From positions 1 through 59,836 of the forward strand of contig JALSKZ010000030.1 of NCBI GenBank assembly GCA_026988575.1: a DNA stretch of 59,836 bases, read 5' to 3'. This DNA is from Thermodesulfobacteriales bacterium (GTDB taxonomy: Bacteria > Desulfobacterota > Thermodesulfobacteria > Thermodesulfobacteriales > Thermodesulfatatoraceae). A program made the position numbers and the translations under genes. This document shows, in pieces, positions 6,854 through 39,632 of the stretch (positions are counted from its first letter, which is position 1; each line of letters opens with the position of its first letter). Under the pieces are notes generated by a model, which ran no database searches, was not told the DNA's origin, and saw only the letters and a list, made by a program, of their open reading frames with translations.

Positions 6854-6854
6854 T

Positions 6855-7529
6855 ATGAACGAAACTAACAGCCGTTTTGCCATAAAAGATTGTGCCCTGG
6901 TTTCTATCTCTACCGGTATCAAGGCCCATATTTTGGCCGAACTACTGGAACATCTTCGCGAAGTAGAAGTGGGTTGTCTATACTACCATTTTTGGGCCCG
7001 GCAATTGCGGCCCAGTTTTGATCACCCAGAGTTTCATAACGATTTTGCTGCCTGGGCCCACAGGGATTTGCATGATTGGATTTTGGCCGAACGTCTCAAT
7101 CTTATTGCTCCCCACGAATTCCAAAATTTAGAGGAACTAAGAGAAGAGCTGATAAATATCTTGGAAGAACGGGTAGACGAAAGCGGAGATCTACCCTGGC
7201 GCAAGGCCGAGGCCCCTTTTCACTTTGTAAAGAGCCAAATCGTGGTCTTGGATACCGGCAAGAGAGCTACTTCTCCAGAAGAGCTGGTAGACATAATCCC
7301 TCTCCTCTCTCAAGGGAGTATTTTTTACCACTTTATAGACGCCCGACGTCGTACCCCTGAGCGAATAGACGATTTTCGTTCTTGGTTTAAGGCCTTTGCT
7401 CCGGACTATGAAGACCTTTCCATCGCCTTGGCCGCCATTGATCCTTATTTTTTGACCCTTACGGAGATTCGTGCCCAACTGCATAAAGTCTTTAAGAGTT
7501 ATTTTGAGTCAAAGCGGGGACCAAAATGA
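6855..7529 (+). CDS. DUF5752 family protein
   Basis: A 224-residue soluble, helix-rich protein of no known reaction that I recognise as DUF5752, a family met beside trehalose and other glycosyltransferase genes. The longer open frame begins inside the upstream gene; I chose the ATG at 6855 because GGGAGGGAAC stands just before it and it lies one base past the preceding stop. Conserved-looking patches are SISTGIKAHILAEL near residue 15, CLYYHFWARQLRP near 38 and a second similar GSIFYHFIDARRRTP near 155, suggesting an internally repeated unit. It overlaps treT by four bases, so translation is coupled and a role in trehalose synthesis or its control is inferred from position only. Confidence 0.82.
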   Translation: MNETNSRFAIKDCALVSISTGIKAHILAELLEHLREVEVGCLYYHFWARQLRPSFDHPEFHNDFAAWAHRDLHDWILAERLNLIAPHEFQNLEELREELINILEERVDESGDLPWRKAEAPFHFVKSQIVVLDTGKRATSPEELVDIIPLLSQGSIFYHFIDARRRTPERIDDFRSWFKAFAPDYEDLSIALAAIDPYFLTLTEIRAQLHKVFKSYFESKRGPK

Positions 7530-21528: not shown

Positions 21529-21579
21529 TTTTAAAGCTGATCGCGGTAAAGGACGAACCTATGGGTGGGAGGTTTGTCC

Positions 21580-24756: not shown

Positions 24757-24793
24757 TAGTGGTACAAAGTGGTAATAAAGTGGCCGGAGGTGG
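24757..24793 (+). promoter_or_regulatory. MraZ-binding box: four GTGG repeats
   Basis: GTGG occurs at 24759, 24769, 24780 and 24790, that is at 10-11 base steps, two of them as AAAGTGG. MraZ proteins bind direct repeats of this kind (GTGG/AAAGTG at about 10-base steps) in front of their own operons. The last repeat lies inside the ribosome site GGAGGTGG, so MraZ bound here would block early elongation or the leader. Confidence 0.7.
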
Positions 24794-24797
24794 TTTA

Positions 24798-25250
24798 TTG
24801 TTTCGTGGGCGCTCTCAACATAATTTGGATGCCAAAGGGCGCCTTAGTATACCGGCCCGCTTTCGTGAGGTATTGCGCGAGCGTTACGGTAATGCAGGGC
24901 TCATCATCACGAATTTGCCGGACTGTTTGGTGGCTTATCCCTGGCCCGAATGGCAGAAGCTAGAAGAGAAGTTACTGAGTTACCCGGTAGATCCACCAGA
25001 ATTGCGGCTGTACAAGCGATATTTTTTGGGTTCTGCGGAAGAGTGTTTCCCTGACCGTCAGGGCCGGATACTGATCCCTGGCCACCTCCGCAAAGAAGCA
25101 GGAATAAATCGAGAGGTGGTGCTCCTTGGTATGCTCAACCACTTCGAAATTTGGAGTCCAGAACGCATCGAGCCCGAATTCCAGAGGGCCCGTGAAAATT
25201 TCGTCGAACTCTCAAGGTTCGTCTCTGAACTCGGTTGTCGAGACGCCTGA
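24798..25250 (+). CDS. mraZ: Transcriptional regulator MraZ
   Basis: A 150-residue protein with two SpoVT/AbrB-like half-domains, each showing the family's D-x-K/R-G-R motif: NLDAKGRLSIPARFR near residue 10 and FPDRQGRILIPGHLR near 88. It forms rings that bind repeated sites before the dcw operon and repress it. I chose the TTG at 24798, seven bases after GGAGGTGG and matching the family's usual start (M-F-R-G); the open frame extends further upstream to a GTG at 24759 that lies in the operator itself. It heads the fourteen-gene dcw run. Confidence 0.93.
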   Translation: MFRGRSQHNLDAKGRLSIPARFREVLRERYGNAGLIITNLPDCLVAYPWPEWQKLEEKLLSYPVDPPELRLYKRYFLGSAEECFPDRQGRILIPGHLRKEAGINREVVLLGMLNHFEIWSPERIEPEFQRARENFVELSRFVSELGCRDA

Positions 25251-26121
25251 GCACGAATCTGTTCTCCTGGATGAAGTGCTGCATTGGATGAGAGTGCGCC
25301 CAGGGGGGCTCTATGTAGACGGTACCGTGGGCCTTGGCGGACACAGTGCGGCTATTTTAGAGCATTCTTCTCCAGATGGGTTCCTTGTGGGGTTTGAATG
25401 GGATGAAGCTTCCAGGCTTTTGGCGCTAAAGCGCTTGCAGCGCTTTAAGGGGCGTTTTGTCCTGGTGCGAGAGAACTTTGCCCGTATGGGCGAAGTCCTC
25501 CAAGAGTTACAAAAAATCCCGGTCACAGCCATTTTGGTTGATTTGGGGCTTTCTTCCTACCTTTTAGAAGGTTCTGGTCGGGGATTCAGTTTTTTACGGG
25601 ATGAAGTGCTGGATATGCGTATGGATGACCGTTTTGAGCAGACCGCCCGAGACTTGGTAAATACTTTGCCTGTACCGCTATTAGAAGAGTTGCTTCGCTC
25701 TTACGGAGAAGAAAGATTTGCCAGGCGCATTGCCAAGGCCATTGGAGAAAGACGCAAATCTAAACCCATAGAGACTTCCAAACAACTGGCGGAGGTTGTT
25801 TGGCGTGCGGTGCCACCCAGTGTGCGCTATAAACGTTTACACCCAGCCACACGGACTTTTCAGGCCTTGCGTATTGCGGTTAACCGCGAGCTTGAAAATT
25901 TGAAACGCTTCCTAGAGACTGCTCCTGACTGTCTGGCCACTGGGGGTCGCTTGGTGGTTATTTCTTTTCACTCCCTGGAAGATCGCTTGGTCAAGCAGGC
26001 TTTTAAGGCAGATAAGCGTCTTAAAGTACTAACGAAAAAGCCCATAGTGCCGAGTGCGGAGGAGGTGCGTCGAAATCCTCGATCAAGGAGTGCCAAATTG
26101 CGTGTGGCGGAAAAAATTTAA
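25192..26121 (+). CDS. rsmH: 16S rRNA (cytosine-1402-N4)-methyltransferase
   Basis: A 309-residue RsmH (MraW), which methylates C1402 of 16S rRNA with SAM. Family marks are HESVLLDEVL at the start of the conserved region, the SAM loop VDGTVGLGGHSAAIL, DLGLSSYLLE, GRGFSFLRDEVLDMRMD, and FHSLEDRLVK near the C terminus. The start is uncertain: the frame opens at 25126 inside mraZ; GTG 25192 follows AGAGGG and gives a modest leader, so the gene overlaps mraZ by 59 bases. The translational overlap suggests coupling with mraZ, the usual partner. Confidence 0.93.
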   Translation: MKISSNSQGSSLNSVVETPEHESVLLDEVLHWMRVRPGGLYVDGTVGLGGHSAAILEHSSPDGFLVGFEWDEASRLLALKRLQRFKGRFVLVRENFARMGEVLQELQKIPVTAILVDLGLSSYLLEGSGRGFSFLRDEVLDMRMDDRFEQTARDLVNTLPVPLLEELLRSYGEERFARRIAKAIGERRKSKPIETSKQLAEVVWRAVPPSVRYKRLHPATRTFQALRIAVNRELENLKRFLETAPDCLATGGRLVVISFHSLEDRLVKQAFKADKRLKVLTKKPIVPSAEEVRRNPRSRSAKLRVAEKI

Positions 26122-26132
26122 GGGAGGACGCC

Positions 26133-26465
26133 ATGGCTATGGTTTCACACGGCACTAGTTTGTACACCTTTAGTCCAAGGAGCAGGCGTCGGGGCAAGGC
26201 GCAACGTTACTCCCTGGTCCATTGGGGATACAGATTGCTCCTGCTCGTGACCCTGGGTCTATTTTTTTGGGGCCTGGGCTACTTGGGGTTTGAATACTAC
26301 CAATTGCGTCAATTAAAGGGAGAAATTAGGGCCCTTTCCGCGCAAAATAGCCGTCTTGAGGCCCTTTACGGGAAGCTAACGAGTAAAGAGGTGGTTTACG
26401 CCAAGGCCAGGGCTTTGGGGCTTTGGGAACCAAAAGCAGAACAGATCGTGAGGTTAAAGAAATGA
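26133..26465 (+). CDS. ftsL: Cell division protein FtsL
   Basis: A 110-residue bitopic protein: a basic cytoplasmic N terminus, one membrane helix (LLLLVTLGLFFWGLGYLGF, about 33-52), and a heptad-rich coiled coil (LRQLKGEIRALSAQNSRLEALYGKL). It has the FtsL/DivIC plan and sits in the conserved ftsL slot between rsmH and ftsI. FtsL normally joins FtsB and FtsQ to activate FtsW-FtsI. A GGGAGG site precedes the ATG, and the stop overlaps the next start (ATGA). Sequence alone is weak in this family; position is the main evidence. Confidence 0.85.
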   Translation: MAMVSHGTSLYTFSPRSRRRGKAQRYSLVHWGYRLLLLVTLGLFFWGLGYLGFEYYQLRQLKGEIRALSAQNSRLEALYGKLTSKEVVYAKARALGLWEPKAEQIVRLKK

Positions 26466-27847
26466 AAAGGGGTTGTTTAACAGGTCTGTTGGTGGCTTTT
26501 GGTCTCTTATTCTTTCTGGTCTCAAGCCTGTTTTGCCGCCAGCCCGAGGTGTTTAATACCCCTGCCAGGGCCCGGGGAGATATATACGATTTTGAGGGGC
26601 GTGTTTTGGCCACTTCAAGGCCCCAGAGGGGGCTTTTTGTAGATCCTCGCTCTTTTGTGGCTACTACAGAGAACATAAAGCTTTTGGCGCAGATAGCAGG
26701 GCTTAAGCCAGAGGCCTTACGTGTACTTTTGGTCCAAAAAGCGGGGCCTTTCCTCTTAAAGGAAAATATTTCGGCCACGGAGGGACAAAAATTAGCCGGC
26801 TTGTCTGGAGTTTTTTCGCTCACCTACTTTAAACGTATCTATCCCTTTATAGAAAGTACGGGTTCGCTTATCGGGAAAGTAAGTTCCTTGGGTCGGGGAG
26901 TGTTGGGGTTGGAAGCGGCCTACGATTCCTTCCTGTCTCGTCCACGCAGTTCTTTACGCACGGCCATAGATCTTGATTTGCAACAGGATCTGCAAAAAGA
27001 GTTAAATAAGGCCCTAAAGGTGTTTCACGCCCGGGAAGGGGGGGCCGCCATGCTTGATGTAGCTTCTGGTCGTCTCTTGGCCCTGGTCTCTACTTCGTCT
27101 CTAAACCCGTTATTAACAGACACTGTTTCTCTCCAGGCCCTCTCCAAGACCCTGGACAAGGCCTTTGGTCAGAGTAGTTATGAAGACCGGGCCGCTTTTT
27201 TACGGAACCTTGGTTTTGGAAGCCCCACCCATATAGACCTGGGGGGAGAAAAAACAGGCCTGTTACCCTTACAGATAGCCCGATATACCGAGGTACAGGC
27301 CACTCCCTTACAGATTTTAAGAGCCCTTTCCACCTTGGCCAGTGGGCAACGTCGTCCCCTCAGGGTGGCCTTTGAGGTCCACGTGCAGAAAAAGGCCTAT
27401 TTAATACCCCCCAAAGGTCAGGAAGTCTCCGGCCTCAAACCACTTAGATACGGGGGCCTGTGGTGGTCAGGGGGGAATCGTCGTCGGGGATACTTTTTCT
27501 TGGCTGGACTTTGGCCCCGCAGACACCCACGAGTGGCTTACGTCATGTATGTCAAGGGGGTAAAAGTATGGGGGCTTCCGGTCTACCCCTCCCGGCTTTG
27601 TCCCCAAAAGGCCTTAGAGGCCTATGTCAAAACTTTTGGCCGTTCTAGTACGTCCAAGGCGATGGCCAAAAATGTGATGCCCGATGTGACCGGGCTTACC
27701 CTTCGGGCTGCTTTGGAGAGACTTGCTCCGTTGGCCATCAAGGTGCGCTACAGAGGGTTTGGCGTCATAGTCAAGCAGTGGCCACAACCAGGTACGCCCT
27801 TAAAAAACGTAAGGGAGTGTAAGTTAGTCCTTCATGAAGATGTTTGA
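26462..27847 (+). CDS. ftsI: FtsI/PBP3-like protein with degenerate, apparently inactive transpeptidase domain
   Basis: A 461-residue protein in the ftsI slot. It has one N-terminal membrane helix (about 5-25), a pedestal domain opening with ARARGDIYDFEGRVLATS, the GVLGLEAAYDSFL segment that precedes the catalytic domain, a recognisable but shortened transpeptidase domain, and a C-terminal PASTA domain (NVMPDVTGLTLRAALERL). None of the catalytic motifs is found. The stretch that should hold SxxK is missing: ALVSTSS is followed after only about 50 residues by LGFGSPTHIDLGGE, against more than 100 normally. No SxN is seen before LGFG, and the KTG strand reads WWSGGNRRR. The frame is intact and composition matches its neighbours, so it is a maintained gene, probably structural rather than enzymatic. 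Start ATG 26462 overlaps ftsL. Confidence 0.85.
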   Translation: MKRGCLTGLLVAFGLLFFLVSSLFCRQPEVFNTPARARGDIYDFEGRVLATSRPQRGLFVDPRSFVATTENIKLLAQIAGLKPEALRVLLVQKAGPFLLKENISATEGQKLAGLSGVFSLTYFKRIYPFIESTGSLIGKVSSLGRGVLGLEAAYDSFLSRPRSSLRTAIDLDLQQDLQKELNKALKVFHAREGGAAMLDVASGRLLALVSTSSLNPLLTDTVSLQALSKTLDKAFGQSSYEDRAAFLRNLGFGSPTHIDLGGEKTGLLPLQIARYTEVQATPLQILRALSTLASGQRRPLRVAFEVHVQKKAYLIPPKGQEVSGLKPLRYGGLWWSGGNRRRGYFFLAGLWPRRHPRVAYVMYVKGVKVWGLPVYPSRLCPQKALEAYVKTFGRSSTSKAMAKNVMPDVTGLTLRAALERLAPLAIKVRYRGFGVIVKQWPQPGTPLKNVRECKLVLHEDV

Positions 27848-29288
27848 AGTCTTGCTTAAGGGTTTAGATTGTCGGCTTATAAGGGGTGCGCAAACCCCCA
27901 TATTCGGGCTTACAGACGATTCTCGAGAGGTAAAGCCCGGTTGGGCCTTTGTGGCCTGCAGGGGGCAGAGTCGAGACGGACACGAATTTATTGCCGAAGC
28001 CCTAAGCCGTGGGGCCCGGGCCCTGATAACCGAAAGGGTTGTTGCGGTGCCTGAAGGGGTGGCCCTGGCTGTGGCCCCGGATACGCGGGCGGTTTTAGGA
28101 GAGCTTGCCGCCAGGTTTTACGATTTCCCGGCTCAACGATTGACGCTCATAGGCATTACCGGTACCAACGGGAAGACCTCTGTGGCGTGGTTTGTCAGAG
28201 AAATGCTCAGGGGCCTGGGACAAGGGGTTGGCCTTTTAGGCACTATTCATTACGATTTGGGTACACGACGTCTACCGGCCCGCGAAACCACACCTGGGTG
28301 TGTGAGATTGCACCGCTATTTGGCCGAAATGGTTCGTGCAGGGCTAACCCACGCGGTAATGGAGGTCTCTTCCCACGCCCTAGACCAGGATCGTATAAAT
28401 CCTCTGAGGTTCCAAATTGCGGTCTTTACGAATCTTTCAAGGGATCATCTCGATTATCATCGAGACATGGAGGCCTATTTTCAGGCCAAAAAAAAATTAT
28501 TTGGTCGATACTTACTTTCTCAGGGCAAGGCCGTGGTCAATGTCTCAGATCCATGGGGCCGACGTTTAGCTTTAGAGCTTGGCGGGCAAGCGATTAGGGT
28601 AGGGGAGGGTACTGCCTTAAGGGGCAGTATCGAAGCACGCGAACCCGGGGGGTATCGATTTGTCCTGGAATATCAGGACCGACGTTATACCTTGGCAACG
28701 CGGCTCTATGGTGATTTCCAGTTGGAAAATCTCCTCCTGAGCGTGGCCGTGGGTCTTGCCCTGGGGTTCCCTCTGGAAGAAATAGGGGCTTCTCTGTCAG
28801 GGATTAGTGCCCCTCCTGGTCGGTTGGAGTTGGTGGCCTGCTACAGAGGAGGCCTTGTTTTTATAGATTATGCCCATACTCCCGGCGCCCTAGCCAGTGC
28901 CTTGCAGAGCTTAAGGCCCTTGGTGCGTAATCGTCTCGTATGTATATTTGGTTGCGGAGGGCAAAGAGATAGGGGCAAACGCCCTCTTATGGGCGAAGTA
29001 GCGGCCCTTCTGGCCGATAAAGTGGTCCTTACCTCGGACAATCCTAGAGGGGAACCTCCGGAAGAGATTGTTGCTCAGATTCTAAAGGGTATTCCACCTA
29101 CCAAGGAGCCTGAAGTCATTCTGGATAGGCGGGAGGCCATTTATACCGGCTTAAAAGACCTTAAAGAGGGTGATGTTTTGTTGATCGCCGGCAAAGGGCA
29201 TGAAGACTATCAAGAAATCGCTGGTATTAGATACCCCTTTTCTGATCAGGAGGTAGTACGCGAATTCCTGTTTACGGAGGGAAGATGA
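27834..29288 (+). CDS. murE: UDP-MurNAc-tripeptide synthetase (meso-diaminopimelate type)
   Basis: A 484-residue Mur ligase that adds the third residue to UDP-MurNAc-L-Ala-D-Glu in the cytoplasm. The ATP loop GITGTNGKTSVAWF is near residue 110, the carbamylated-lysine region is HYHRDMEAYFQAKKKLF near 215, and SDNPRGEPPEE near 405 contains the DNPR motif that marks meso-diaminopimelate specificity. ATGs at 27834 and 27840 are both possible; the gene overlaps the ftsI end by 14 bases. Peptidoglycan is therefore expected to be of the Gram-negative A1-gamma type. Confidence 0.96.
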   Translation: MKMFEVLLKGLDCRLIRGAQTPIFGLTDDSREVKPGWAFVACRGQSRDGHEFIAEALSRGARALITERVVAVPEGVALAVAPDTRAVLGELAARFYDFPAQRLTLIGITGTNGKTSVAWFVREMLRGLGQGVGLLGTIHYDLGTRRLPARETTPGCVRLHRYLAEMVRAGLTHAVMEVSSHALDQDRINPLRFQIAVFTNLSRDHLDYHRDMEAYFQAKKKLFGRYLLSQGKAVVNVSDPWGRRLALELGGQAIRVGEGTALRGSIEAREPGGYRFVLEYQDRRYTLATRLYGDFQLENLLLSVAVGLALGFPLEEIGASLSGISAPPGRLELVACYRGGLVFIDYAHTPGALASALQSLRPLVRNRLVCIFGCGGQRDRGKRPLMGEVAALLADKVVLTSDNPRGEPPEEIVAQILKGIPPTKEPEVILDRREAIYTGLKDLKEGDVLLIAGKGHEDYQEIAGIRYPFSDQEVVREFLFTEGR

Positions 29289-30658
29289 TTATCACTACCG
29301 AAGACATAGTCCGCGCCACAGGCGGATTATTGCTCAATGGAGATATGGGGATTTCCTTCCCCAGGGTTTCGAGAGATTCCCGGGATATAAGACCAGGAGA
29401 CCTTTTTGTGGCCCTTAGAGGCCAACGTTTTGACGGACACGATTTTGTCCTGGAGGCCATAGAAAAAGGGGCCAAGGGGGTCATGGTCTCTAGTTGGCCT
29501 GAAAGACTCAATATATTCGAGGTCCACCGGGCCATATCCATTATTCAGGTAGAGGACACGACAAAGGCCCTGGGGGACCTGGCTGCTTATGTGCGCAGAA
29601 GATTTTCGGGCCCTGTAGTAGGGATTACGGGCTCTTTCGGGAAGACCACCACTAAAGAACTTTTGGTCAAGATACTGGGGCAGCGCTTCAAAGTGGCCAA
29701 GAGCCCGGGTAACTATAATAATCTCATTGGTCTTCCCTTGTCGATCCTAAACGCCCCTCCTGAGGCCGAGGTCATGGTGCTTGAATTAGCCACCAATGAG
29801 CCAGGGGAAATAGCCAGGCTCACAGAAATAGCGGCTCCTTCGGTGGCCTTATTAGTGGGCGTAGGGCCGGCCCATTTAGAGGGGCTTAAAGACCTCTCTG
29901 GTGTGCTTCAGGAAAAGTTGGCCCTCTTTCATACCAGCCCTGAAGGGACACGATGTATCTATCCCTTTGATCAGATCGAGGTACGACAGGCCTTGGCTCC
30001 TCTCTCCCACAGGCCACTTTTGAGTTTTGGTTTTTCAGAGGGGGCTGACGTCAGGGCCACGGATATAGCCTACGATCTTTCTGGCACCACCTTCATCTTG
30101 GCCTATCAGGGCGAACAAATACAGGTTACTTTACCCCTTTTAGGTCGTCACTTTGTCCACGATGCCTTGGCGGCCGCAGCCGCGGCCCTAAGTCTGGGGC
30201 TTACCCTTAGAGAAATTTCAGCAGGTCTTGCCGAGGGTAAGACCCTGGAACAGCGCTTGGAGCTCAAACAGATAAAAGGGCACTTGATTTTAGACGACAC
30301 TTATAACGCCAATCCCTCTTCCCTCCAGGCGGCCTGTGAGGTAGTAGGACATTTCCGCAAAAGCTTTTCCAAGGCTATAGCGGTGGTGGGCGACATGAAA
30401 GAACTTGGGCCGGATTCTGCCCGGTTTCATCGGGAAGCTGGGGCCCTTTTGGCCGAGACTTTTGACTATGTTTTGGGCCTGGGGGAATGGGCCCAAGAAT
30501 TAGCCTATGGGGCCCGGCAAAAGGGGGAGGCCTTCGCCGATAAGGAGACCCTGTGGCAGCGGTTAAGCCAGCTGCTTAGAAGTCCCTCGTTGATCCTGGT
30601 TAAAGGATCGCGGGCCATGCGCATGGAAGACATTATTCGGAAGTTAGAGGAGGCCTAG
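29285..30658 (+). CDS. murF: UDP-MurNAc-tripeptide--D-alanyl-D-alanine ligase
   Basis: A 457-residue Mur ligase that attaches D-Ala-D-Ala to the UDP-MurNAc-tripeptide. Features are an N-terminal UDP-binding domain (SRDSRDIRPGDLFVAL), the ATP loop GITGSFGKTTTKELL near residue 115, EMVLE-type metal strand in EVMVLELATNEPGE, and DDTYNANPSSLQAA near residue 335, characteristic of MurF. The start codon overlaps the murE stop (ATGA), and mraY follows without a gap. Its substrate D-Ala-D-Ala requires Ddl, whose gene is not in this cluster. Confidence 0.96.
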   Translation: MIITTEDIVRATGGLLLNGDMGISFPRVSRDSRDIRPGDLFVALRGQRFDGHDFVLEAIEKGAKGVMVSSWPERLNIFEVHRAISIIQVEDTTKALGDLAAYVRRRFSGPVVGITGSFGKTTTKELLVKILGQRFKVAKSPGNYNNLIGLPLSILNAPPEAEVMVLELATNEPGEIARLTEIAAPSVALLVGVGPAHLEGLKDLSGVLQEKLALFHTSPEGTRCIYPFDQIEVRQALAPLSHRPLLSFGFSEGADVRATDIAYDLSGTTFILAYQGEQIQVTLPLLGRHFVHDALAAAAAALSLGLTLREISAGLAEGKTLEQRLELKQIKGHLILDDTYNANPSSLQAACEVVGHFRKSFSKAIAVVGDMKELGPDSARFHREAGALLAETFDYVLGLGEWAQELAYGARQKGEAFADKETLWQRLSQLLRSPSLILVKGSRAMRMEDIIRKLEEA

Positions 30659-31735
30659 GTGTTTTATCACCTCCTTTATCCCTTACATGAATGGTGCGGG
30701 GTGTTTAACGTCTTTCGCTACATCACTTTTCGCACCATATACGCCATTATCACTGCGGGGTTGCTGGTCTATTTTTTGATGCCCCGCTTTATAACCCTTA
30801 TGAAGGCCAAACAGTTTGGGCAAATCGTCCGTGAGATTGGGCCAGACCATCAACACAAGGCCGGTACCCCTACCATGGGAGGGGTGGTCATCATCTTGGC
30901 CGTGGTAACAAGTGTGCTCTTATGGGGAAACCTAAATAATGTCTATCTTTGGGCCTCTCTTACGGTGTTTGTGCTCTTTGGTATTATAGGTTTTGTAGAT
31001 GACTGGCAAAAGATTATCCACAAGAGAAACCTAGGGCTTAGAGCCAGGCAAAAACTTATTCTCCAAACCCTCATAGCCATAGGTTTTCTCTGCTTTATTG
31101 TCCATTTGGGCTCCTTTGATACCAGGCTTTCTGTGCCGTTTTTCAAGACCTTCCGACCTGATATAGGTATTTTTTATTTCCCTTTGGTGGTGGTTATCTT
31201 GGTAGGCTCATCTAACGCCGTTAACTTGACCGACGGGTTAGATGGTCTAGCCATAGGACCGTTTATTATTGTGGCCTTGGTTTATATGCTATTTGTCTAT
31301 TTAGCCGGTCACGCGCGTTTGGCTGCTTATTTGCAAATAGCTTATGTCCCTGGAGCAGGAGAGTTGTCCATTTTTTGTGGGGCCTTGGTGGGCGCAGGAC
31401 TCGGATTTTTGTGGTACAACGCCTATCCCGCAGAGATTTTTATGGGAGATGTAGGTTCTCTTTCTCTCGGGGCGGCCTTGGGGACGGTGGCCGTGGTCGC
31501 CAAACAAGAGCTCCTTTTGGCCCTTGCTGGAGGAGTCTTCGTAGCCGAGGCCCTTTCGGTCATTATTCAAGTAACCTATTTTAAAATTACCGGGGGGCAG
31601 AGGATCTTTCTTATGGCCCCCTTGCATCATCACTTTGAAAAAAAGGGGTGGCCAGAGCCCAAAATTATCGTAAGATTTTGGATCATTGCGGCCCTTTTGG
31701 GATTAGTGGCTCTGAGTACGCTAAAATTGCGCTAA
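30659..31735 (+). CDS. mraY: Phospho-N-acetylmuramoyl-pentapeptide-transferase
   Basis: A 358-residue inner-membrane enzyme that makes lipid I from UDP-MurNAc-pentapeptide and undecaprenyl phosphate. About ten helices are evident. Signature segments are HKAGTPTMGGVVI near residue 65, FVDDWQKIIHKRN near 115 with the double aspartate, NLTDGLDGLAIG near 190, and HHHFEKKGWPE near 325. It begins with GTG directly after the murF stop (the ribosome site is inside murF: TTAGAGGAGG). Typical length. Confidence 0.97.
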   Translation: MFYHLLYPLHEWCGVFNVFRYITFRTIYAIITAGLLVYFLMPRFITLMKAKQFGQIVREIGPDHQHKAGTPTMGGVVIILAVVTSVLLWGNLNNVYLWASLTVFVLFGIIGFVDDWQKIIHKRNLGLRARQKLILQTLIAIGFLCFIVHLGSFDTRLSVPFFKTFRPDIGIFYFPLVVVILVGSSNAVNLTDGLDGLAIGPFIIVALVYMLFVYLAGHARLAAYLQIAYVPGAGELSIFCGALVGAGLGFLWYNAYPAEIFMGDVGSLSLGAALGTVAVVAKQELLLALAGGVFVAEALSVIIQVTYFKITGGQRIFLMAPLHHHFEKKGWPEPKIIVRFWIIAALLGLVALSTLKLR

Positions 31736-31745
31736 AGGTTTTTTT

Positions 31746-33152
31746 ATGAAGGGTAAACTTGATCTTAAAGGTAAAAAGGTAGTGGTGGTAGGTTTTGGTC
31801 GTTCGGGACAGGCGGCCACAAGGCTCCTGTTGCGGCAGGGGGCCAGGGTTGTGGTGTCGGAAAGACGGCCAAAGAAGGATTTTGCCCCGGGCATGATCCG
31901 AAACCTTCAAGAATCAGGGGTGATCTTTGAGTGGCAAGACCATAACCCCAAAACTCTTCAGCAGGCCGATTTAGTGGTGGTAAGCCCGGGTGTCCCTTTG
32001 GCTGTTTACGCCCCTGCCGTAGCGGTGGGGGTGCCTGTAATCGGAGAGTTGGAGCTGGCTTGTCGTTTTTTGGAAGGGCCTAAAGTGGTAGCCATTACCG
32101 GTACCAACGGTAAGACCACCACCACGGCCATGGTGGCTGATATTTTACGTTTCTCTGGTTTTAAGGTCTTTATTGGGGGGAATTACGGTACTCCTTTGTC
32201 AGAATTTGTGGTGACCCGTCAGCGGGCAGATTATGTGGTGCTTGAAGTCTCCAGTTTTCAACTGGAGACCACGGTTAGTTTTGCCCCTGATGTGGGGCTC
32301 CTTTTGAATATCACCCCTGACCACCTGGAGCGGTATCTTTCTTTTGAAGATTATGCCCGTACCAAATGGTTTCTATTTGCACACCAACGCGAGGATCAAA
32401 TAGCCATTATTCCCAAGGAGATAGTTGATCCAGAAGGCCGGCGTGAGACCTTGCCTGGGCGGGTCTTCACTTTCGGTCCAGACAAGACCTGTAACGCCTG
32501 GTTAAGTGAGGGGGGTTTTAGCCTTAAGGTCTCCCCTTACCACATTGTAGAAGACTATACCTTTGCGGGGTTTAAGCTCTTGGGAGAGCACAATCGGCTC
32601 AATTTTGTGGCGGCGGCCTTAACGGCCCGTTTAGCCGGGGCTCAGGCCCAGGGTGTTAAGCGTGCCTTGGAGAGTTTTGTGGGGTTCCCGCACCGTCTGG
32701 AATATATAGGCTGTTTTGGGGGAGTTTACTTTGTTAATGATTCCAAGGCCACCAATGTAGACGCCACGGTCAAGGCCTTAGAGGGGCTTAGCGGGCCTAT
32801 AATCTTGATTTTAGGGGGCAAGCACAAGGGCGCTTCGTATATCCCCTTGGCCCCTCTTATTCGGGAAAAGGTGCGTCTTCTCATCCTGATGGGTGATTCG
32901 CGGCATAAGATGGCCGAAGAGCTACGCGATTTGACGCTTACCCGTATAGTCCCGAGCCTGGAGGAGGCAGTGGCCTTGGCTATTTCGGAGGCCACCGCTG
33001 GAGATACGGTGCTTCTCTCGCCTGCGGCAGCAAGCTTTGACCAGTTTGAAAACTTTCAGGAGCGGGGAGACGTATTTAGGGAGATCGTTTTGGCTTATGC
33101 CCCCGAATATTTGGGTGAAGACGAACGAGTAAAAAGGGTTACGTACCATTGA
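31746..33152 (+). CDS. murD: UDP-MurNAc-L-alanine--D-glutamate ligase
   Basis: A 468-residue Mur ligase adding D-glutamate to UDP-MurNAc-L-Ala. N-terminal VVVGFGRSGQAATRLL, SPGVPL, the ATP loop AITGTNGKTTTTAMVADIL near residue 117, the ELETT-rich LEVSSFQLETT, LNITPDHLERY and NDSKATNVDAT near 335 are all diagnostic. In most dcw clusters ftsW follows murD; here the TTG of murG overlaps the murD stop by four bases, leaving no room for it. Confidence 0.96.
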   Translation: MKGKLDLKGKKVVVVGFGRSGQAATRLLLRQGARVVVSERRPKKDFAPGMIRNLQESGVIFEWQDHNPKTLQQADLVVVSPGVPLAVYAPAVAVGVPVIGELELACRFLEGPKVVAITGTNGKTTTTAMVADILRFSGFKVFIGGNYGTPLSEFVVTRQRADYVVLEVSSFQLETTVSFAPDVGLLLNITPDHLERYLSFEDYARTKWFLFAHQREDQIAIIPKEIVDPEGRRETLPGRVFTFGPDKTCNAWLSEGGFSLKVSPYHIVEDYTFAGFKLLGEHNRLNFVAAALTARLAGAQAQGVKRALESFVGFPHRLEYIGCFGGVYFVNDSKATNVDATVKALEGLSGPIILILGGKHKGASYIPLAPLIREKVRLLILMGDSRHKMAEELRDLTLTRIVPSLEEAVALAISEATAGDTVLLSPAAASFDQFENFQERGDVFREIVLAYAPEYLGEDERVKRVTYH

Positions 33153-34237
33153 AGAGGGAGGGTCTGCGTTTGGTTATTGCTGGTGGAGGCACAGGAGGAC
33201 ACCTCTTCCCAGGGTTAGCTGTGGCTGAAGAAGTAGTGGCCCAGGGGGGGCAGGTACTCTTTGTGGGTTGTGGACGCAAGGTGGAAGAGCTCGCCCTGGC
33301 CAAGACCCCCTTTGCGGTGGAGACCTTGAACGCAGAGGGGCTTTTGGGACGCCCCCTCTTTGCCAAGGTACGGGCCTTGGGCAAGATGACCATGGCGGTG
33401 ATCAAGGCCCTAAAGATTGTGCAAGGTTTTAATCCCCAGGTAGTCCTGGGGGTAGGGGGGTACGCCTCGGTCCCGGTGCTTATGGCAGCGAAGATGCTTC
33501 GGCTACCTTGTGCTATCCACGAGCAGAATTCTATCCCAGGTGTAGCCAACCGTGTCTTGGCCCGGTTGGCTAACAGGGTGTTTGTGTCTTTTAAAGAGGC
33601 CGAGGCCTTTTTCCCGGCAAGTAAAGTAAGGCATACGGGCAATCCCGTGCGCAAGACTTTAAAAGGGCCTTATCCTCGCGAGCACAAAGGTTTAGGATTG
33701 TTGATTACCGGAGGTAGTCAAGGTGCCCGCGCCCTAAATGAGCTTGCTCTCCAGGTGGTTCCCGGGCTTATTAGACGGTTTCCGGGGCTTTATGTGATTC
33801 ACCAGACCGGTTTCAAAGACTATGACCGGGTGTCTTCGATCTATCAGGTCCAGGGGCTTAAGGTAAAGGTATTTCCTTTTATAGAGGATATGGCCTGGGC
33901 GTACGCCCAGGTCGACCTGGTAATTTGTCGGGCCGGGGCTACCACCATAGCTGAGCTTTGTAGCCTTGGTAAACCGGCCATTTACATACCATTTCCATAC
34001 GCCACTCATAGCCATCAGGAACGTAACGCAGAGGTGGTAGTGGCCAACGGGGCAGGAGTGATGTTTCGCGAAAGGGACCTCACGGCAGAGGTGCTCTTGG
34101 AGACGGTGATTGCTTTATTGGAAGACGATCAACGTCGAGAGCGCATGGCTCAGGCCGCCCGTGAGGTGTTCCCTGCTCGTCCGGTAGAAAGAATCTTAAA
34201 AGAAATGGAGGCGCTGGTAGGACATGTTGGAGCATAA
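33149..34237 (+). CDS. murG: Lipid II synthase (UDP-GlcNAc transferase MurG)
   Basis: A 362-residue GT28 enzyme on the inner face of the membrane that adds GlcNAc to lipid I, giving lipid II. Marks are the first loop IAGGGTGGHLFPGLAVAEE, GVGGYASVPVLMAA, HEQNSIPGVANR, TGGSQGARALNELAL near residue 185, and the C-terminal GAGATTIAEL-like CRAGATTIAELCSLG with IPFPYATHSHQERNA. The start is TTG at 33149, overlapping murD (TTGA). Overlap with murC is 14 bases. Confidence 0.97.
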   Translation: MKREGLRLVIAGGGTGGHLFPGLAVAEEVVAQGGQVLFVGCGRKVEELALAKTPFAVETLNAEGLLGRPLFAKVRALGKMTMAVIKALKIVQGFNPQVVLGVGGYASVPVLMAAKMLRLPCAIHEQNSIPGVANRVLARLANRVFVSFKEAEAFFPASKVRHTGNPVRKTLKGPYPREHKGLGLLITGGSQGARALNELALQVVPGLIRRFPGLYVIHQTGFKDYDRVSSIYQVQGLKVKVFPFIEDMAWAYAQVDLVICRAGATTIAELCSLGKPAIYIPFPYATHSHQERNAEVVVANGAGVMFRERDLTAEVLLETVIALLEDDQRRERMAQAAREVFPARPVERILKEMEALVGHVGA

Positions 34238-35609
34238 GAAATATCACTTCATCGGCATTGGTGGCATAGGCATGAGTGGGCTGGCCAAACTCCTTTTGAG
34301 TCTGGGGTTTGAGTTAAGCGGGTCTGATTTGTCCCGCAGCGAGATTACTCGCCAACTAGAACGTCAGGGGGCCAGGATATTTTATGAACACCGGCCTCAA
34401 AACGTGCACGGTGCCGAGGTAGTGGTCTATTCCTCGGCGATCAAAGAAGACAATCCAGAGTTAAAAGAGGCCCGAAGATTAGGTTTAAAGGTAATCCCCC
34501 GGGCCGCCATGTTGGTAGAGATTATGAAACTCCACCAGACCAACATATTGGTGGCCGGGGCCCATGGTAAGACCACCACCTCTTCTATGGTGGCTTCGGT
34601 GCTCACGGCCGGGGGGCTAAACCCCACGGTGGCTGTTGGAGGTAAAGTAAACGGCTTTGCGGGAAACGCTTGGCTTGGCAGGCGCGAGTATCTGGTGGCC
34701 GAGGCCGACGAAAGCGATGGGTCTTTTCTCCAAATGACACCAGACATCGCGGTGGTAACCAATATAGACAAAGAACACCTAGACTTTTATCCAGATCTGG
34801 CGGCGATCAAGGAGGCCTTTAGGTCCTTTTTGGGAAGGTTACGTCCTGGAGGGCAGGCGGTTGTCTGCGGAGAAGACGCTGTCTTACGCAGCCTGATAGA
34901 AGACTTAGCCATCCCTGTGGTCACCTATGGTTTTTCTCCCGCGACCACCCTGCAGGCCAAAGTATTGACTGGGGGGCCGCGGCCGCGATTTAAGGTCTTC
35001 TTAAAAGGGAAAGAGTTGGGCGAGGTTTCTATTAGAGTCCCTGGAGAACACAATATCTTAAACGCCTTGGCCGCCCTAGGGGTGGGGTTACACCTTGGGG
35101 TGCCTTTTGCGGACCTTTGCCAGGGGTTGGCTAATTTTTATGGTGTTCGGCGGCGGTTAGAGTTTAAGGGGCAGATCAAAGATGTTTGCGTAGTGGACGA
35201 CTACGCCCATCACCCCACCGAGATCCGGGTTACCATTAAGGCCCTACGGGAGGCCTATCCCCGGAGACGTTTAGTGTTGCTGTTTCAGCCCCATAGATAT
35301 TCCCGTACCAAGGCCCTTTTTGAGGAATTTGTCCGGGCCTTTGATGGGGTAGATCTCCTCCTGATCACGGAGATATATCCGGCTTCGGAGTTACCTATCC
35401 CTGGGGTTAGTGGCGAGAGCCTTTTTAAGGCCTTATCTGAGCGCAGGGGGGGGGATACCTTTTTTGCCGAGACCAAAGAGCTCCTACTGGCGCGGGCCCT
35501 GTCTTTGATTGAGCCGGGTGATCTTGTGGTTACTATGGGAGCTGGAGACATCTACCGGGTAGGGGAGGCCTTGATACAAGAACTTGGCGTTCGGCAGGAG
35601 GTGGCCTAG
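34224..35609 (+). CDS. murC: UDP-N-acetylmuramate--L-alanine ligase
   Basis: A 461-residue Mur ligase, the first of the four peptide-adding enzymes. The N-terminal nucleotide loop FIGIGGIGMSGLAKLL, the ATP loop VAGAHGKTTTSSMVAS near residue 110, EADESDGSFLQM, NIDKEHLDFY, and VDDYAHHPTEIR near 325 identify MurC. It follows murG with an overlap and is followed two bases later by murB. In many genomes ddl lies near here; it does not in this window. Confidence 0.97.
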   Translation: MLEHKKYHFIGIGGIGMSGLAKLLLSLGFELSGSDLSRSEITRQLERQGARIFYEHRPQNVHGAEVVVYSSAIKEDNPELKEARRLGLKVIPRAAMLVEIMKLHQTNILVAGAHGKTTTSSMVASVLTAGGLNPTVAVGGKVNGFAGNAWLGRREYLVAEADESDGSFLQMTPDIAVVTNIDKEHLDFYPDLAAIKEAFRSFLGRLRPGGQAVVCGEDAVLRSLIEDLAIPVVTYGFSPATTLQAKVLTGGPRPRFKVFLKGKELGEVSIRVPGEHNILNALAALGVGLHLGVPFADLCQGLANFYGVRRRLEFKGQIKDVCVVDDYAHHPTEIRVTIKALREAYPRRRLVLLFQPHRYSRTKALFEEFVRAFDGVDLLLITEIYPASELPIPGVSGESLFKALSERRGGDTFFAETKELLLARALSLIEPGDLVVTMGAGDIYRVGEALIQELGVRQEVA

Positions 35610-35610
35610 G

Positions 35611-36507
35611 GTGCAAGCATTACTGAGGGCATATCGCGAACACGGTCTTCCCTTTTTTGAGGGTGTAACCCTGGCCCCTTATACTACTTTGCGTGTAGGG
35701 GGTCCGGCCCGGTGTTTGGTGACTCCTAAAGATTATCAACAGGCCTGTCTAGCGGTGGATTTGGCCTTTAAGGTCGGCGTGCCGGTCTTTTTCCTGGGCG
35801 GTGGTAGCAACCTTTTGGTACGCGATGGGGGAATGCCTGGGGTAGTGGTTGATCTGAAAGGCCTTAATCAATTGCGTTACCTGGGAAAAGGTTTGGTGGA
35901 GGCCGAAGCAGGTGTAAGTCTGGGGGCCCTTTTGCGTTTCTGCCATCAAAAAGGTCTAAGCGGCCTTGAATTTTTGGCCGGGGTGCCGGCTACCGTGGGG
36001 GGAATAGTCCGCATGAATGCCGGGGCCTTTGGTTATGAAGTAAAAGACCTCCTGCAAGAGGTTACCGTCTGGCATGGGGGACAGGTGGAGACCCTCCGAG
36101 CCCCAGACTTAAAATTTGTTTACCGTTGTTGGGGTGGCCCTTCCGGGGCCCTGATTCTAAAGGCCTTATTCCTTTTTCGTCCTTTACCACCAGAGGACAT
36201 AGAAGAACGCCTACGTTATTTTCTGGGCCGACGTCGTGATCGGCAGCCTGTTGGAGAGGCCACTGCCGGGTGCATATTCAAAAACCCAGAGGGTATCGCG
36301 GCAGGCTTTCTTCTGGACAAGATAGGGTTAAAGGGCTTTACCCATGGTCGCGCCCATTTTTCGCGAAAACACGCCAATTTTATCGTAACTAAAAAGGGGG
36401 CCAAGGCGGAGGACGTTTTGTTCTTGATAGATAAGGCCAAAGAAGAGGTCATGAGGGCCTTTGGGATCGAGCTTAGGGAGGAGGTGGTTGTTGTTGGTGA
36501 AGCCTAG
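35611..36507 (+). CDS. murB: UDP-N-acetylenolpyruvoylglucosamine reductase
   Basis: A 298-residue flavoenzyme that reduces UDP-GlcNAc-enolpyruvate to UDP-MurNAc using NADPH. FAD-binding features are TLRVGGPARCLV near residue 25, FFLGGGSNLLVRDGG near 62, and the family segments GLEFLAGVPATVGG and GYEVKDLL; the catalytic-region serine/cysteine position reads GCIFKNPEG, then HANFIVTKKGA. It is a short, type II-like MurB. I chose the GTG at 35611 because GGAGGTGG precedes it, rather than the open frame's earlier TTG inside murC. Confidence 0.95.
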   Translation: MQALLRAYREHGLPFFEGVTLAPYTTLRVGGPARCLVTPKDYQQACLAVDLAFKVGVPVFFLGGGSNLLVRDGGMPGVVVDLKGLNQLRYLGKGLVEAEAGVSLGALLRFCHQKGLSGLEFLAGVPATVGGIVRMNAGAFGYEVKDLLQEVTVWHGGQVETLRAPDLKFVYRCWGGPSGALILKALFLFRPLPPEDIEERLRYFLGRRRDRQPVGEATAGCIFKNPEGIAAGFLLDKIGLKGFTHGRAHFSRKHANFIVTKKGAKAEDVLFLIDKAKEEVMRAFGIELREEVVVVGEA

Positions 36508-37255
36508 AAAACAAGGCTTTTATCAGATATTGGTGGGCCTTTGTTTTTTTGCCCTGGGGGCCTTTGGCTTCTATTGGGTACACCACTCCAGCAGTTTTGC
36601 TTTGCAAGATATAGAAATTGACCTGCCCGCTAATCCCTATATTTCCAAAAAGCAGGTATTGATCCTTAGCGGTGCTCCCTTGGGGCAAAACCTGTTTAGG
36701 CTTGATCTGAGGCGTATTGAGAGACAACTGGAGGCCCATCCGTGGGTGGCCAGGGCCTTTGTGTCGCGGAGGCTGCCTGATGGGCTCTATATAAAGATCA
36801 CTCTGGAAAAGCCCGTGGCCATGGTGGCCACCCCTAAAGGGGTCTATTTGGTAAACCAGCAGGGGAGGCTTTTTGCCCCGGCTCTTCCCCTCCAGATGAA
36901 AGACTACCCGGCGTTGGCCGGGGTGTCGTCCCAAGAAATTGCGGCCCGAAGCCTCGACCAACGCTACAGGCCTTTATTAAAACTTTTGGCATACTTGCGT
37001 AAACATGATCAATATCTACCCTGCTACGCCAATATCTCCCAAATAAAACTCTTAAAAGAGGGCTTTGTGCTCCTTACCCGCGATGCCATCTTGGTGCGCT
37101 TCCAGGGCCTGGATTTTGCTACTTTGTGGCGTCAATACCGCTATTTAGACCGTATTATGGCCTATCTGTACGATACCAAACAGTACAGCAGGGCCAAAGT
37201 TATTCGTTTTGATTATCCCAAGGGTCGGGCAGCCATAAGTTTTAAGGAAGGTTAG
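36497..37255 (+). CDS. ftsQ: Cell division protein FtsQ
   Basis: A 252-residue bitopic protein with a short basic cytoplasmic tail, one membrane helix (about 10-32), a POTRA domain (FALQDIEIDLPANPYISKKQVL, in two strands, then NLFRLDLRRIERQLEAHPWV), and the FtsQ beta domain (VYLVNQQGRLF, then a long C-terminal region). It bridges FtsA/FtsZ-side proteins and the FtsL-FtsB pair in the septal complex. Start is uncertain among TTG 36491, TTG 36494 and GTG 36497, all just after GGGAGGAGG; it overlaps murB slightly. Confidence 0.92.
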   Translation: MKPRKQGFYQILVGLCFFALGAFGFYWVHHSSSFALQDIEIDLPANPYISKKQVLILSGAPLGQNLFRLDLRRIERQLEAHPWVARAFVSRRLPDGLYIKITLEKPVAMVATPKGVYLVNQQGRLFAPALPLQMKDYPALAGVSSQEIAARSLDQRYRPLLKLLAYLRKHDQYLPCYANISQIKLLKEGFVLLTRDAILVRFQGLDFATLWRQYRYLDRIMAYLYDTKQYSRAKVIRFDYPKGRAAISFKEG

Positions 37256-37259
37256 AGAA

Positions 37260-38471
37260 ATGGTAAAGGACGACATAGAACCAATAGTGGCTCTTGATAT
37301 AGGGACCACCAAGATTTGTTGTTTAGTGGCGGTGGAAAAAGAAAGCGGGCTTCAGGTATTGGGTATGGGCATGGTAGGCTCTGCGGGTCTGCGGCGTGGC
37401 GTGGTAGTAAACATTGAAAGTACGGTTAGTGCTATAGTCCAGGCCGTGCAACAGGCGGAAGAACAGTGTGGAGAGGAGATACAAAACGTCATTATTGGTA
37501 TTGCTGGTACCCACATACGGAGTCAGAAGAGTAACGGAGTTATCCCCTTAAAATATGGCGAAGTAACCGAAGAGGACGAACAACGGGTCATCGAGGCGGC
37601 GCGGGCCATAAATTTACCCAACGATCGTATAATCCTGCACGCCATTCCTGAAGAATACATTGTGGACGATCAGCGAGGGATTGAACAGCCCGTGGGAATG
37701 AGCGGGGTGCGTCTAGAGGCCAAGGTGCATATTGTTACCGCTGGCTCTTCGGCGGTACAAAACTTGATCAAGTGTGTGGAAATGGCGCACTTAGAACCCG
37801 AGGCAGTGGTCTTACAGCCTTTGGCCTCGGCGGAAGCCGTACTCACCGAAGAAGAAAAACAGCTGGGCGTGGCCCTTATTGATTTTGGAGGTGGTACTAC
37901 AGATATAGCCATATTTTTAGAGGGGGCTATGCGCTATACCACAGCAGTGGGGGTAGGGGGACAGATCCTTACCAGCGACCTCACTGTGGGGTTACGTACC
38001 ACCATGAGTGCGGCTGAACGCCTGAAGTTGCAATATGGGTGTTGTTTGGCGCCTTTGGTCCCTCGCGAGGAATATATAGAAGTTCCCAGTTTAGGGAATA
38101 GACCCGCGCGGAAACTCTCACGTCAGATATTGGCCGAGATCTTAGAACCCCGCGTAGAAGAGTTACTGGAGATACTGAATACGGAGCTGGAGCGTTCCGG
38201 ACTTAAGCCTCGTTTGGGTTCAGGAGTAGTCATAACGGGTGGTTCGGCCTTATTACCAGGCCTTTTAGAGATGGCCGACCAGATATTTGAGCTTCCCACG
38301 CGGATAGGTTACCCCGTGAAACTGCCGGGGCTTACCGAGGAAATATATCACCCTCGGCTGTCCACGGCCGTAGGTCTTTTACTGTACGGCACCAGATATC
38401 TTTATCCGGCCAAAGAACACAAGGCCCGTGGACCTTTGGGGCGTATTTTTGAAAAGATTTTTGGGAGGTGA
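37260..38471 (+). CDS. ftsA: Cell division protein FtsA
   Basis: A 403-residue actin-like protein that tethers FtsZ to the membrane. The phosphate-1 loop VALDIGTTKICCLVA, the phosphate-2 loop LIDFGGGTTDIAIF near residue 205, and the adenosine motif ITGGSALLPGLLEMA near 325 are intact, and the 1C domain is present between. A C-terminal amphipathic helix ends the chain (GPLGRIFEKIFGR). It lies four bases after ftsQ and three before ftsZ, the usual order. Confidence 0.97.
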   Translation: MVKDDIEPIVALDIGTTKICCLVAVEKESGLQVLGMGMVGSAGLRRGVVVNIESTVSAIVQAVQQAEEQCGEEIQNVIIGIAGTHIRSQKSNGVIPLKYGEVTEEDEQRVIEAARAINLPNDRIILHAIPEEYIVDDQRGIEQPVGMSGVRLEAKVHIVTAGSSAVQNLIKCVEMAHLEPEAVVLQPLASAEAVLTEEEKQLGVALIDFGGGTTDIAIFLEGAMRYTTAVGVGGQILTSDLTVGLRTTMSAAERLKLQYGCCLAPLVPREEYIEVPSLGNRPARKLSRQILAEILEPRVEELLEILNTELERSGLKPRLGSGVVITGGSALLPGLLEMADQIFELPTRIGYPVKLPGLTEEIYHPRLSTAVGLLLYGTRYLYPAKEHKARGPLGRIFEKIFGR

Positions 38472-38474
38472 CCC

Positions 38475-39632
38475 ATGCCTTTTGATTTTTTAGAGAGCGA
38501 ATATCAGGCCAAGATAAAAGTTATCGGCGTAGGTGGTGGAGGGGGAAACGCCGTTAACAATATGATTGCCAAGGGCCTGAGGGGGGTTGAATTCATTGTA
38601 GCCAATACCGACTACCGAGTTTTGGATCGATCTCCAGCACCGGTAAAGATCCAGCTTGGTAAGGAGCTTACCAAGGGCTTGGGCGCCGGGGGAGACCCAG
38701 AGGTGGGCAAAGAGGCCGCGGAGGAGGCTGAAAACGAAATACGTGAAGCCCTGGCAGGGGCAGATATGGTCTTTGTTACCTGCGGTATGGGAGGTGGAAC
38801 TGGTACCGGTGCGTCCCCAGTCATCGCAAGGATTGCCAAAGAGTTAGGAGCCCTTACGGTAGCTGTGGTTACAAAGCCCTTTCGTTTTGAAGGGAAACCG
38901 CGGGCTAAAGTGGCAGAAAAGGGCCTTGAGGAGTTGCGGCGGCAGGTAGATACCCTCATTACTATTCCTAATGATCGTTTATTGGCCCTGGCTTCCCCCA
39001 AGGCCCGCTTGTTGGAGATGTTTTGTCAGGCCGACGACGTGCTCTACTATGCCGTGCGAGGCATTTCCGACTTGATACTCTTTCCGGGGTATATCAACCT
39101 TGACTTTGCGGATGTAAGGGCGGTTATGAGTGAGATGGGCCTGGCGCTTATGGGCACAGGGGTGGCCACAGGAGAGACCAGGGCGGAAGAGGCCGCCAAA
39201 GCGGCTATTTCAAGCCCCTTATTAGACGACATTTCCATTGCCGGGGCCAGAGGGGTGCTTTTAAATATCACGGCTCATCCCCATACCCTTACCATGGAAG
39301 AGACGGAATACATCTCTAATTTGGTAGTGGAAGAGGCCCACGAGGAAGCCAAGATCTATTGGGGGGTGGTTTTTGATGAACAGGCTGGAGAGGAGTTGCG
39401 GGTGACGGTGATCGCCACGGGCATTGGCCAGGTGGAAGAGCGTCCTGCTGAAGAAGAGGCCAAGGTGTTAAATTTAGCTGCCGAGCGCGATAAAGAGCGG
39501 TTAGCCAATGTTCAGGGAGATAAAAGGCTTGTGCAGACCAGTTTATATAAACCTCGAAGGCGCGTTATGGAAAATATACCCAGTGAAGAAGAGCTAGAGG
39601 TACCGGCCTTTATCCGTCGCAAAGCCGACTAA
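38475..39632 (+). CDS. ftsZ: Cell division protein FtsZ
   Basis: A 385-residue tubulin-like GTPase that forms the division ring. The tubulin signature is GMGGGTGTGASPVIA near residue 105 (serine in place of the common alanine), with VGGGGGNAVNNM near the N terminus and the T7 loop NLDFADVRAVM near 205. A short linker leads to the conserved tail VPAFIRRKAD, which binds FtsA. GGGAGGTGACCC precedes the ATG. It is the last gene of the cluster, ahead of a strong terminator. Confidence 0.98.
   Translation: MPFDFLESEYQAKIKVIGVGGGGGNAVNNMIAKGLRGVEFIVANTDYRVLDRSPAPVKIQLGKELTKGLGAGGDPEVGKEAAEEAENEIREALAGADMVFVTCGMGGGTGTGASPVIARIAKELGALTVAVVTKPFRFEGKPRAKVAEKGLEELRRQVDTLITIPNDRLLALASPKARLLEMFCQADDVLYYAVRGISDLILFPGYINLDFADVRAVMSEMGLALMGTGVATGETRAEEAAKAAISSPLLDDISIAGARGVLLNITAHPHTLTMEETEYISNLVVEEAHEEAKIYWGVVFDEQAGEELRVTVIATGIGQVEERPAEEEAKVLNLAAERDKERLANVQGDKRLVQTSLYKPRRRVMENIPSEEELEVPAFIRRKAD

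Follow-up and report, generated by a model that had tools for sequence, protein, structure and literature searches.

How is a septum built in a bacterium whose dcw cluster lacks ftsW? The question is raised by the window analysed here, a stretch of 59,836 nucleotides from a Thermodesulfobacteriales bacterium (contig JALSKZ010000030.1), in which an otherwise complete cluster runs on the + strand from 24759 to 39632 in the order mraZ-mraW-ftsL-ftsI-murE-murF-mraY-murD-murG-murC-murB-ftsQ-ftsA-ftsZ (Table 1). In the literature, FtsW and FtsI figure as a nearly universal requirement for making septal peptidoglycan. The original prediction held that the usual place of ftsW is empty and that no SEDS protein lies elsewhere between mraZ and ftsZ, and both statements stand. 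The coordinates confirm that murD and murG share four bases, with the TTG start of murG at 33149 and the TGA stop of murD at 33150-33152, leaving no room for ftsW between them, and each open reading frame from mraZ to ftsZ was named by Pfam, none of them as SEDS.

Table 1. Features of the dcw cluster, in coordinates of the window.
Feature	Coordinates	Strand	Evidence
mraZ, opens dcw cluster	24759..25250	+	PF02381 5.9e-29
mraW (rsmH)	25126..26121	+	PF01795 2.5e-105
FtsL-like DivIC-family protein	26133..26465	+	PF04977 9.4e-6, under cut-off
pseudo-FtsI, catalytically dead	26462..27847	+	TM helix, PBP_dimer pedestal, transpeptidase remnant, one PASTA
murE	27834..29288	+	Mur ligase domains, position
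murF	29285..30658	+	Mur ligase domains, position
mraY	30659..31735	+	PF00953, PF10555
murD	31746..33152	+	PF21799, PF08245, PF02875
murD/murG four-base overlap, usual ftsW place	33149..33152	+	sequence TTGA
murG	33149..34237	+	PF04101 6.2e-43; TIGR01133 2.1e-91
murC	34224..35609	+	Mur ligase domains, position
murB	35584..36507	+	PF02873 1.9e-27
ftsQ	36461..37255	+	PF08478 2e-12, PF03799 2.7e-4
ftsA	37260..38471	+	TIGR01174 3.6e-132
ftsZ	38475..39632	+	PF00091 5.3e-53

A second DivIC-family protein of the same genome (C34:53271) is the candidate FtsB. An Rfam scan of the window gave no matches. Two regulatory genes lie directly upstream of mraZ (21565-24518), one for a sigma-54 response regulator and the other for a PAS histidine kinase that gives a weak membrane match of PilS type; the window also carries a trehalose-phosphate synthase/phosphatase fusion clustered with a TreT-like trehalose synthase (4640-8776) and a full-length DUF505 protein (42747-44681, 4.9e-231).

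The gap extends beyond the cluster. In the window's own assembly (2.01 Mb in 88 contigs, 98.84% complete), a genome-wide search for SEDS proteins with PF01098 returned a single gene (C71:755-1726), which lies in a rod operon of the order mreB-mreC-mreD-PBP2-rodA, and no SEDS gene at murD/murG or elsewhere in the genome groups with FtsW. One SEDS match each was obtained from 11 ftsW-less relatives whose genomes are single contigs (G003, G010, G011, G012, G013, G014, G018, G125, G193, G378 and G390), so the absence is not an assembly gap, and that explanation was rejected. The single-contig genome G054 also has one SEDS gene, in two abutting frames beside PBP2; this split rodA (locus L141) reflects either a frameshift or a sequencing error.

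Among the 79 genomes searched, one SEDS gene was found in all ten genomes of the window's family (f1, including its own) and in all 31 genomes of f2 and f3, the rest of the order (in G035 as two fragments). The identical search gave two SEDS in most ftsW-bearing relatives, and across the phylum (394 genomes) single-SEDS genomes were found in many more families. In 58 genomes chosen for having one SEDS or none, the SEDS adjoins murG in eight (FtsW only), murG stands without an adjoining SEDS in 42, and the other eight, which gave no murG match at a threshold of 1e-30, were left out downstream. The murD-murG junction is cut by a contig end in G007 and G009, each of which has one SEDS match, beside PBP2.

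The remaining SEDS protein groups with RodA. A tree of 77 SEDS proteins separated 24 FtsW of dcw clusters from 53 SEDS of rod operons with no exception and a support of 1.0; all sole SEDS placed on it fell with RodA, among them that of the window's genome, whose gene is accompanied by PBP2 and mreBCD. This protein scores 286.2 bits on the rodA model (TIGR02210) and 236.9 bits on the ftsW model, below the respective cut-offs of 336.7 and 337.5. It keeps the HTD string with its Asp, presumably the essential catalytic residue on the periplasmic side.

Some other residues of RodA have changed. The RodA-typical string P-VVG-(I/V)P (P-TKG- in FtsW) is kept in G010 and in the other readable RodA-only lineages. 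It has become P(V/I/T/A)AS(V/I/L)P in f1 and in the f3 members G018, G021 and G023, and PMTSIP in G011; several RodA sequences did not match the pattern used for this reading. In f1 and three of the four f3 sequences examined, H or R stands in place of the G before LLP; clade D (described below) has separately exchanged this G for H, R or N. Judged from sequence, such changes would fit an altered role of RodA in the families of the window. Across nine diagnostic columns there was no general trend of RodA towards FtsW-type residues, the mean FtsW-like fraction being 0.19 in the order and 0.07 in other RodA-only genomes. The RodA loci showing these changes are L129-L140, L210-L213, L228 and L005, the near-invariant VVG having been lost in the window's family and its sister family.

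The partner enzyme of FtsW has also changed. The gene between ftsL and murE has its longest open reading frame from TTG 26423 to 27847, and alignment makes ATG 26462 the likely start. A TM helix, a PBP_dimer pedestal (PF03717, 6.1e-9) and a transpeptidase fold (PF00905, 1.5e-6, partial, 117-189 of 299), together with a PASTA domain (1e-6), mark its product as a class B PBP by descent. The stretch expected to bear SxxK and SxN is deleted, no KTG remains, and the aligned columns hold no catalytic residue. An AlphaFold2 model of the protein (mean pLDDT 91.2) matches FtsI/PBP3 and SpoVD structures over about 350 residues with Z about 30, the best match being SpoVD (7rcz; Z 31.3, rmsd 4.2, 364 residues), and the FtsI chain of FtsWIQBL (8bh1) is matched with Z 29.1. 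The protein thus combines the fold of FtsI with the loss of its motifs and is an FtsI without an active site, hereafter pseudo-FtsI. It resembles the FtsI (PBP3) of 8bh1 in fold, domain order and dcw position, and differs from it in lacking the catalytic subdomain that bears SxxK, SxN and KTG and in having no FtsW partner.

To describe this as decay, as the original prediction did, is apt for the three missing motifs but not for the protein as a whole, which has a confidently predicted FtsI fold and is a conserved pseudoenzyme under purifying selection, not debris. By the Nei-Gojobori method, dN/dS of the dead FtsI was 0.087-0.250 in 13 of 14 ftsW-less pairs drawn from the order, A-other and clades B and C (the G300-G354 pair was saturated and gave no value), within the range of MurE, MurG, MurC and FtsQ from the same pairs. 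An N-terminal hydrophobic (TM) helix is present in 78 of 80 dead FtsI, the other two being cut at contig ends. Pedestal and PASTA are present in many of these proteins and absent from others: the pedestal is eroded in part of the Thermodesulfobacteriales, Pfam recognised no domain in two tested clade D forms of 248 and 280 aa, and lengths are graded from 715 down to 248 aa. Outside the phylum, the scan with pseudo-FtsI gave a sole match, to a Phycisphaerae MAG (L243, residues 51-221, 3e-7).

The dcw regions of 58 genomes and 47 more were sampled in order to compare the two losses across the phylum; the readable FtsI, together with that of the window, numbered 101. At ftsW-bearing loci, alignment to intact FtsI shows each of the seven catalytic letters (S,K / S,N / K,T,G) in all 21 FtsI. 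In the ftsW-less genomes, no SxxK/SxN/KTG set survives in any of the 80 FtsI; stray KTG-like or P-x-[ST]-xx-K strings occur at other positions in G354, G401, G234, G242 and G115. The link that the original prediction drew between the missing ftsW and the decay of FtsI is therefore strongly supported, without exception in the 101 readable dcw loci, and the cases that would speak against it, sought across the phylum sample, did not appear: no ftsW was found elsewhere, and no dead FtsI beside a resident ftsW. This is a large group of sulfur-cycling bacteria that is without FtsW and keeps only a catalytically dead FtsI.

Left out of the 101 were G008, where a contig end leaves an FtsI fragment of 125 aa, G031 and G033, whose loci are too short, G041, whose sampled contig has no FtsI, and the ftsW-bearing G050, whose FtsI frame is split over two frames with SxxK and SxN visible. 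The dcw loci of G070 and G078 were sampled with their FtsI outside this count, and G102 and G201 (RodA-only), G288 (FtsW-only) and the dcw loci of G038 and G040 lie outside the sample, as do those of the phylum members among the 79 genomes above that are not on the dcw locus list. Many ftsW-less families also show a probable MurE-MurF fusion, an open reading frame of about 980-1050 aa with MurE as best match and no separate MurF (L162-L201, e.g., L169, L175, L180 and L185, and L118; families f17, f56, f68, f79, f83, f97, f98 and f107).

A FastTree phylogeny of 103 genomes, based on a concatenation of nine dcw proteins, places the ftsW-less genomes in four clades: A (48 genomes, including the window's order; support 0.989), B (19 genomes, 1.0), C (3 genomes, 1.0) and D (10 genomes, 1.0). 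Joint support is 0.997 for A+B and 0.869 for A+B+C; if A+B+C is one clade, ftsW was lost twice independently, otherwise up to four times. The more numerous independent losses suggested by a first, smaller tree were rejected, the wider sample cutting them to 2-4. The co-loss thus rests on few independent events, yet it persists through long divergence in each.

With FtsW lost and FtsI dead, the septum must be built another way, and the synthases that remain are few. The window's genome has three PF00905 matches, to PBP2 with all motifs (C71), the class A enzyme PBP1A (C33) and the partial dcw FtsI. Intact FtsI of relatives score 222-308 bits on PF00905; in the window's order, no second protein besides PBP2 exceeds 143.3 bits among the matches listed (to about 118 bits), and in G027 no match exceeds 137.1 bits among those listed. 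A pattern search recognised the three motifs together in 49 of 52 PBP2; of the rest, G165 (TGSTFK) and G145 (KTA for KTG) escaped the pattern, and G041 is a truncated frame. PBP1A of the window's genome has both domains (TIGR02074, 614.6 bits), and at least one GT51 protein (class A PBP) is present in 60 of 61 ftsW-less genomes; G030 (99% complete, 80 contigs) gave no GT51 match, possibly because of an assembly gap. Each of five genomes tested from the window's family has one.

The division and elongation machineries are otherwise retained. FtsZ, FtsA, FtsQ and FtsL/FtsB-like proteins accompany the dead FtsI, and DivIC-family proteins (FtsL/FtsB candidates) were found in 45/45 genomes tested. 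MreB is kept in 60/61 ftsW-less and 14/19 ftsW-bearing genomes. The five ftsW-bearing genomes without an MreB match (G058, G062, G106, G230 and G343) are FtsW-only, the mirror image expected for lineages without a rod system. G059 and G104 have a single SEDS and retain MreB; the lack of both SEDS and MreB matches in G136 is most simply a gap over the mre-rodA operon.

The ftsW-less hosts studied here are, we assume, non-sporulating diderms. The nearest known parallel is Clostridioides difficile, which has no canonical FtsW/FtsI pair, keeps FtsZ and the dcw genes, is left with RodA-PBP2 and one class A PBP as main synthases, and uses the class A PBP as its septal synthase (PMC10693644). It keeps a dcw SEDS and class B PBP (SpoVE and SpoVD), repurposed for sporulation (PMC10693644), whereas the clades described here have lost ftsW and retain FtsI as a pseudoenzyme. 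A division class B PBP working without catalysis is also described for Bacillus subtilis, where catalytically inactive PBP2B supports division through a structural role (PMC5656894). That protein is a laboratory mutant needing PBP3 (PMC5656894), unlike the dead FtsI, which is natural over dozens of species and accompanied by the loss of FtsW. In Escherichia coli, PBP2 and PBP3 interact, PBP2 is transiently located at the Z-ring (PMC8657477), and preseptal synthesis is independent of PBP3 (PMC6269477).

The absence of ftsW is itself already known: it has been published for Thermodesulfobacteria (PMC8871954) and, within the Desulfobulbaceae, for two genomes each of Ca. Electrothrix and Desulfobulbus (PMC7873302), the same dcw gap in the same phylum, and the relevant passages of both papers make no mention of a dead FtsI. 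PMC7873302 counts FtsI among the recruited division proteins and describes septal synthesis by FtsI activity as the final step in E. coli. The dead partner FtsI and the strict co-loss are apparently new, as no report of a naturally dead dcw FtsI or of the co-loss was found in the titles and abstract openings of open-licence papers, a body of literature with bioRxiv and most subscription papers outside it.

Septum building has probably passed to the two enzymes that otherwise drive cell elongation. We lean slightly, from the sequence evidence, towards pseudo-FtsI serving as a non-catalytic membrane scaffold that would link FtsQLB to RodA-PBP2, possibly together with a class A PBP. The septal SEDS FtsW was lost in this lineage and in other clades of the phylum, and its partner FtsI lost catalysis alongside; the latter stays on, we infer, as a membrane component of the divisome without enzymatic activity. 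The TM helix of pseudo-FtsI, with the pedestal in most lineages, would dock on FtsQLB; as the pedestal is eroded or unrecognised in some lineages, they share no single docking surface other than the helix. Once docked, pseudo-FtsI may recruit or activate another synthase, most likely RodA-PBP2, which would then be common to side wall and septum and could be helped by a class A PBP; the docking surface would come from an ancestral contact of PBP2 with PBP3, as seen in E. coli. In support of this reading stand the co-loss over four clades, the purifying selection on pseudo-FtsI and its confident fold, the grouping of the sole SEDS with RodA, the lack of a second high-scoring class B PBP among the matches listed for the order, the retention of MreB (60/61 ftsW-less genomes, against five of 19 ftsW-bearing ones without it) and the precedents from B. 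subtilis and E. coli; against it weigh the uneven pedestal, the RodA scores below both cut-offs, the lack of a general trend of RodA towards FtsW-type residues and the small number of independent losses. Whether this one SEDS-bPBP pair makes both side wall and septum, with the dead FtsI switching it from MreB to FtsZ control, seems to us evenly poised. The reliance on a RodA-PBP2-like pair anticipated by the original prediction is thus plausible, given a sole, RodA-like SEDS and an intact PBP2, but the class A PBP is kept too (60/61), as faithfully as RodA-PBP2, and so the genomes do not choose between these synthases.

The strongest competitor, possible though less probable in our analysis, is that the septum is built by PBP1A alone, with RodA-PBP2 confined to the side wall and pseudo-FtsI scaffolding FtsQLB or PBP1A. 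The near-universal GT51 protein and the two-domain PBP1A suit it, as does class A PBP1 of C. difficile, which drives vegetative septation without a canonical FtsW/FtsI pair (PMC10693644). Yet G030, unless its assembly has a gap, lacks a GT51 match, GT51 number is not raised in the window's family, and C. difficile, unlike the bacteria here, can do without the dcw FtsL/Q/B in vegetative division and has an active FtsI homologue in its dcw cluster (PMC10693644). A functionless pseudo-FtsI, left to erode once FtsW was gone, is quite improbable. The wide spread of lengths (248-715 aa) and the domains no longer recognised in clade D and part of the order are what erosion would leave; however, an open reading frame occupies the FtsI place in 80/80, all 78 complete N-termini have the TM helix, the model is well folded, and dN/dS (0.09-0.25 in the order, A-other, B and C) equals that of essential neighbours, on which ground mere debris was rejected.

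Two further readings concern the SEDS count itself, and both are scarcely credible. Assembly or search might have overlooked an FtsW and an active FtsI at other loci, as the split of the window's assembly into 88 contigs would allow; this is already contradicted for the window's order by the one SEDS in single-contig genomes and the lack, among the matches listed, of a second high-scoring class B PBP, and the same PF01098 search does find two SEDS in most ftsW-bearing relatives. The remaining SEDS might instead be an FtsW relocated to the rod operon, a view to which its sub-threshold rodA score and, for the window's families, the missing PVVG(I/V)P lend some colour. Relocation was rejected on the perfect tree split (support 1.0), which places the protein with RodA; moreover, the rodA model beats the ftsW model by 49 bits, and the string typical of RodA is present in G010, another member of the order.

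A pseudo-FtsI scaffold serving RodA-PBP2 would, if true, mean that the scaffold function of FtsI is separable from its catalysis and has outlasted it, and that diderm rods can divide in an FtsZ-dependent manner without need for FtsW-FtsI. These bacteria offer a natural experiment in which the scaffold role of FtsI stands apart from its enzymatic role, at stages of reduction from 715 down to 248 aa. Cable bacteria, for which the absence of ftsW has been published, are predicted to have a dead FtsI, and whether one SEDS-bPBP pair can serve both elongation and division becomes a question testable in cultured organisms.
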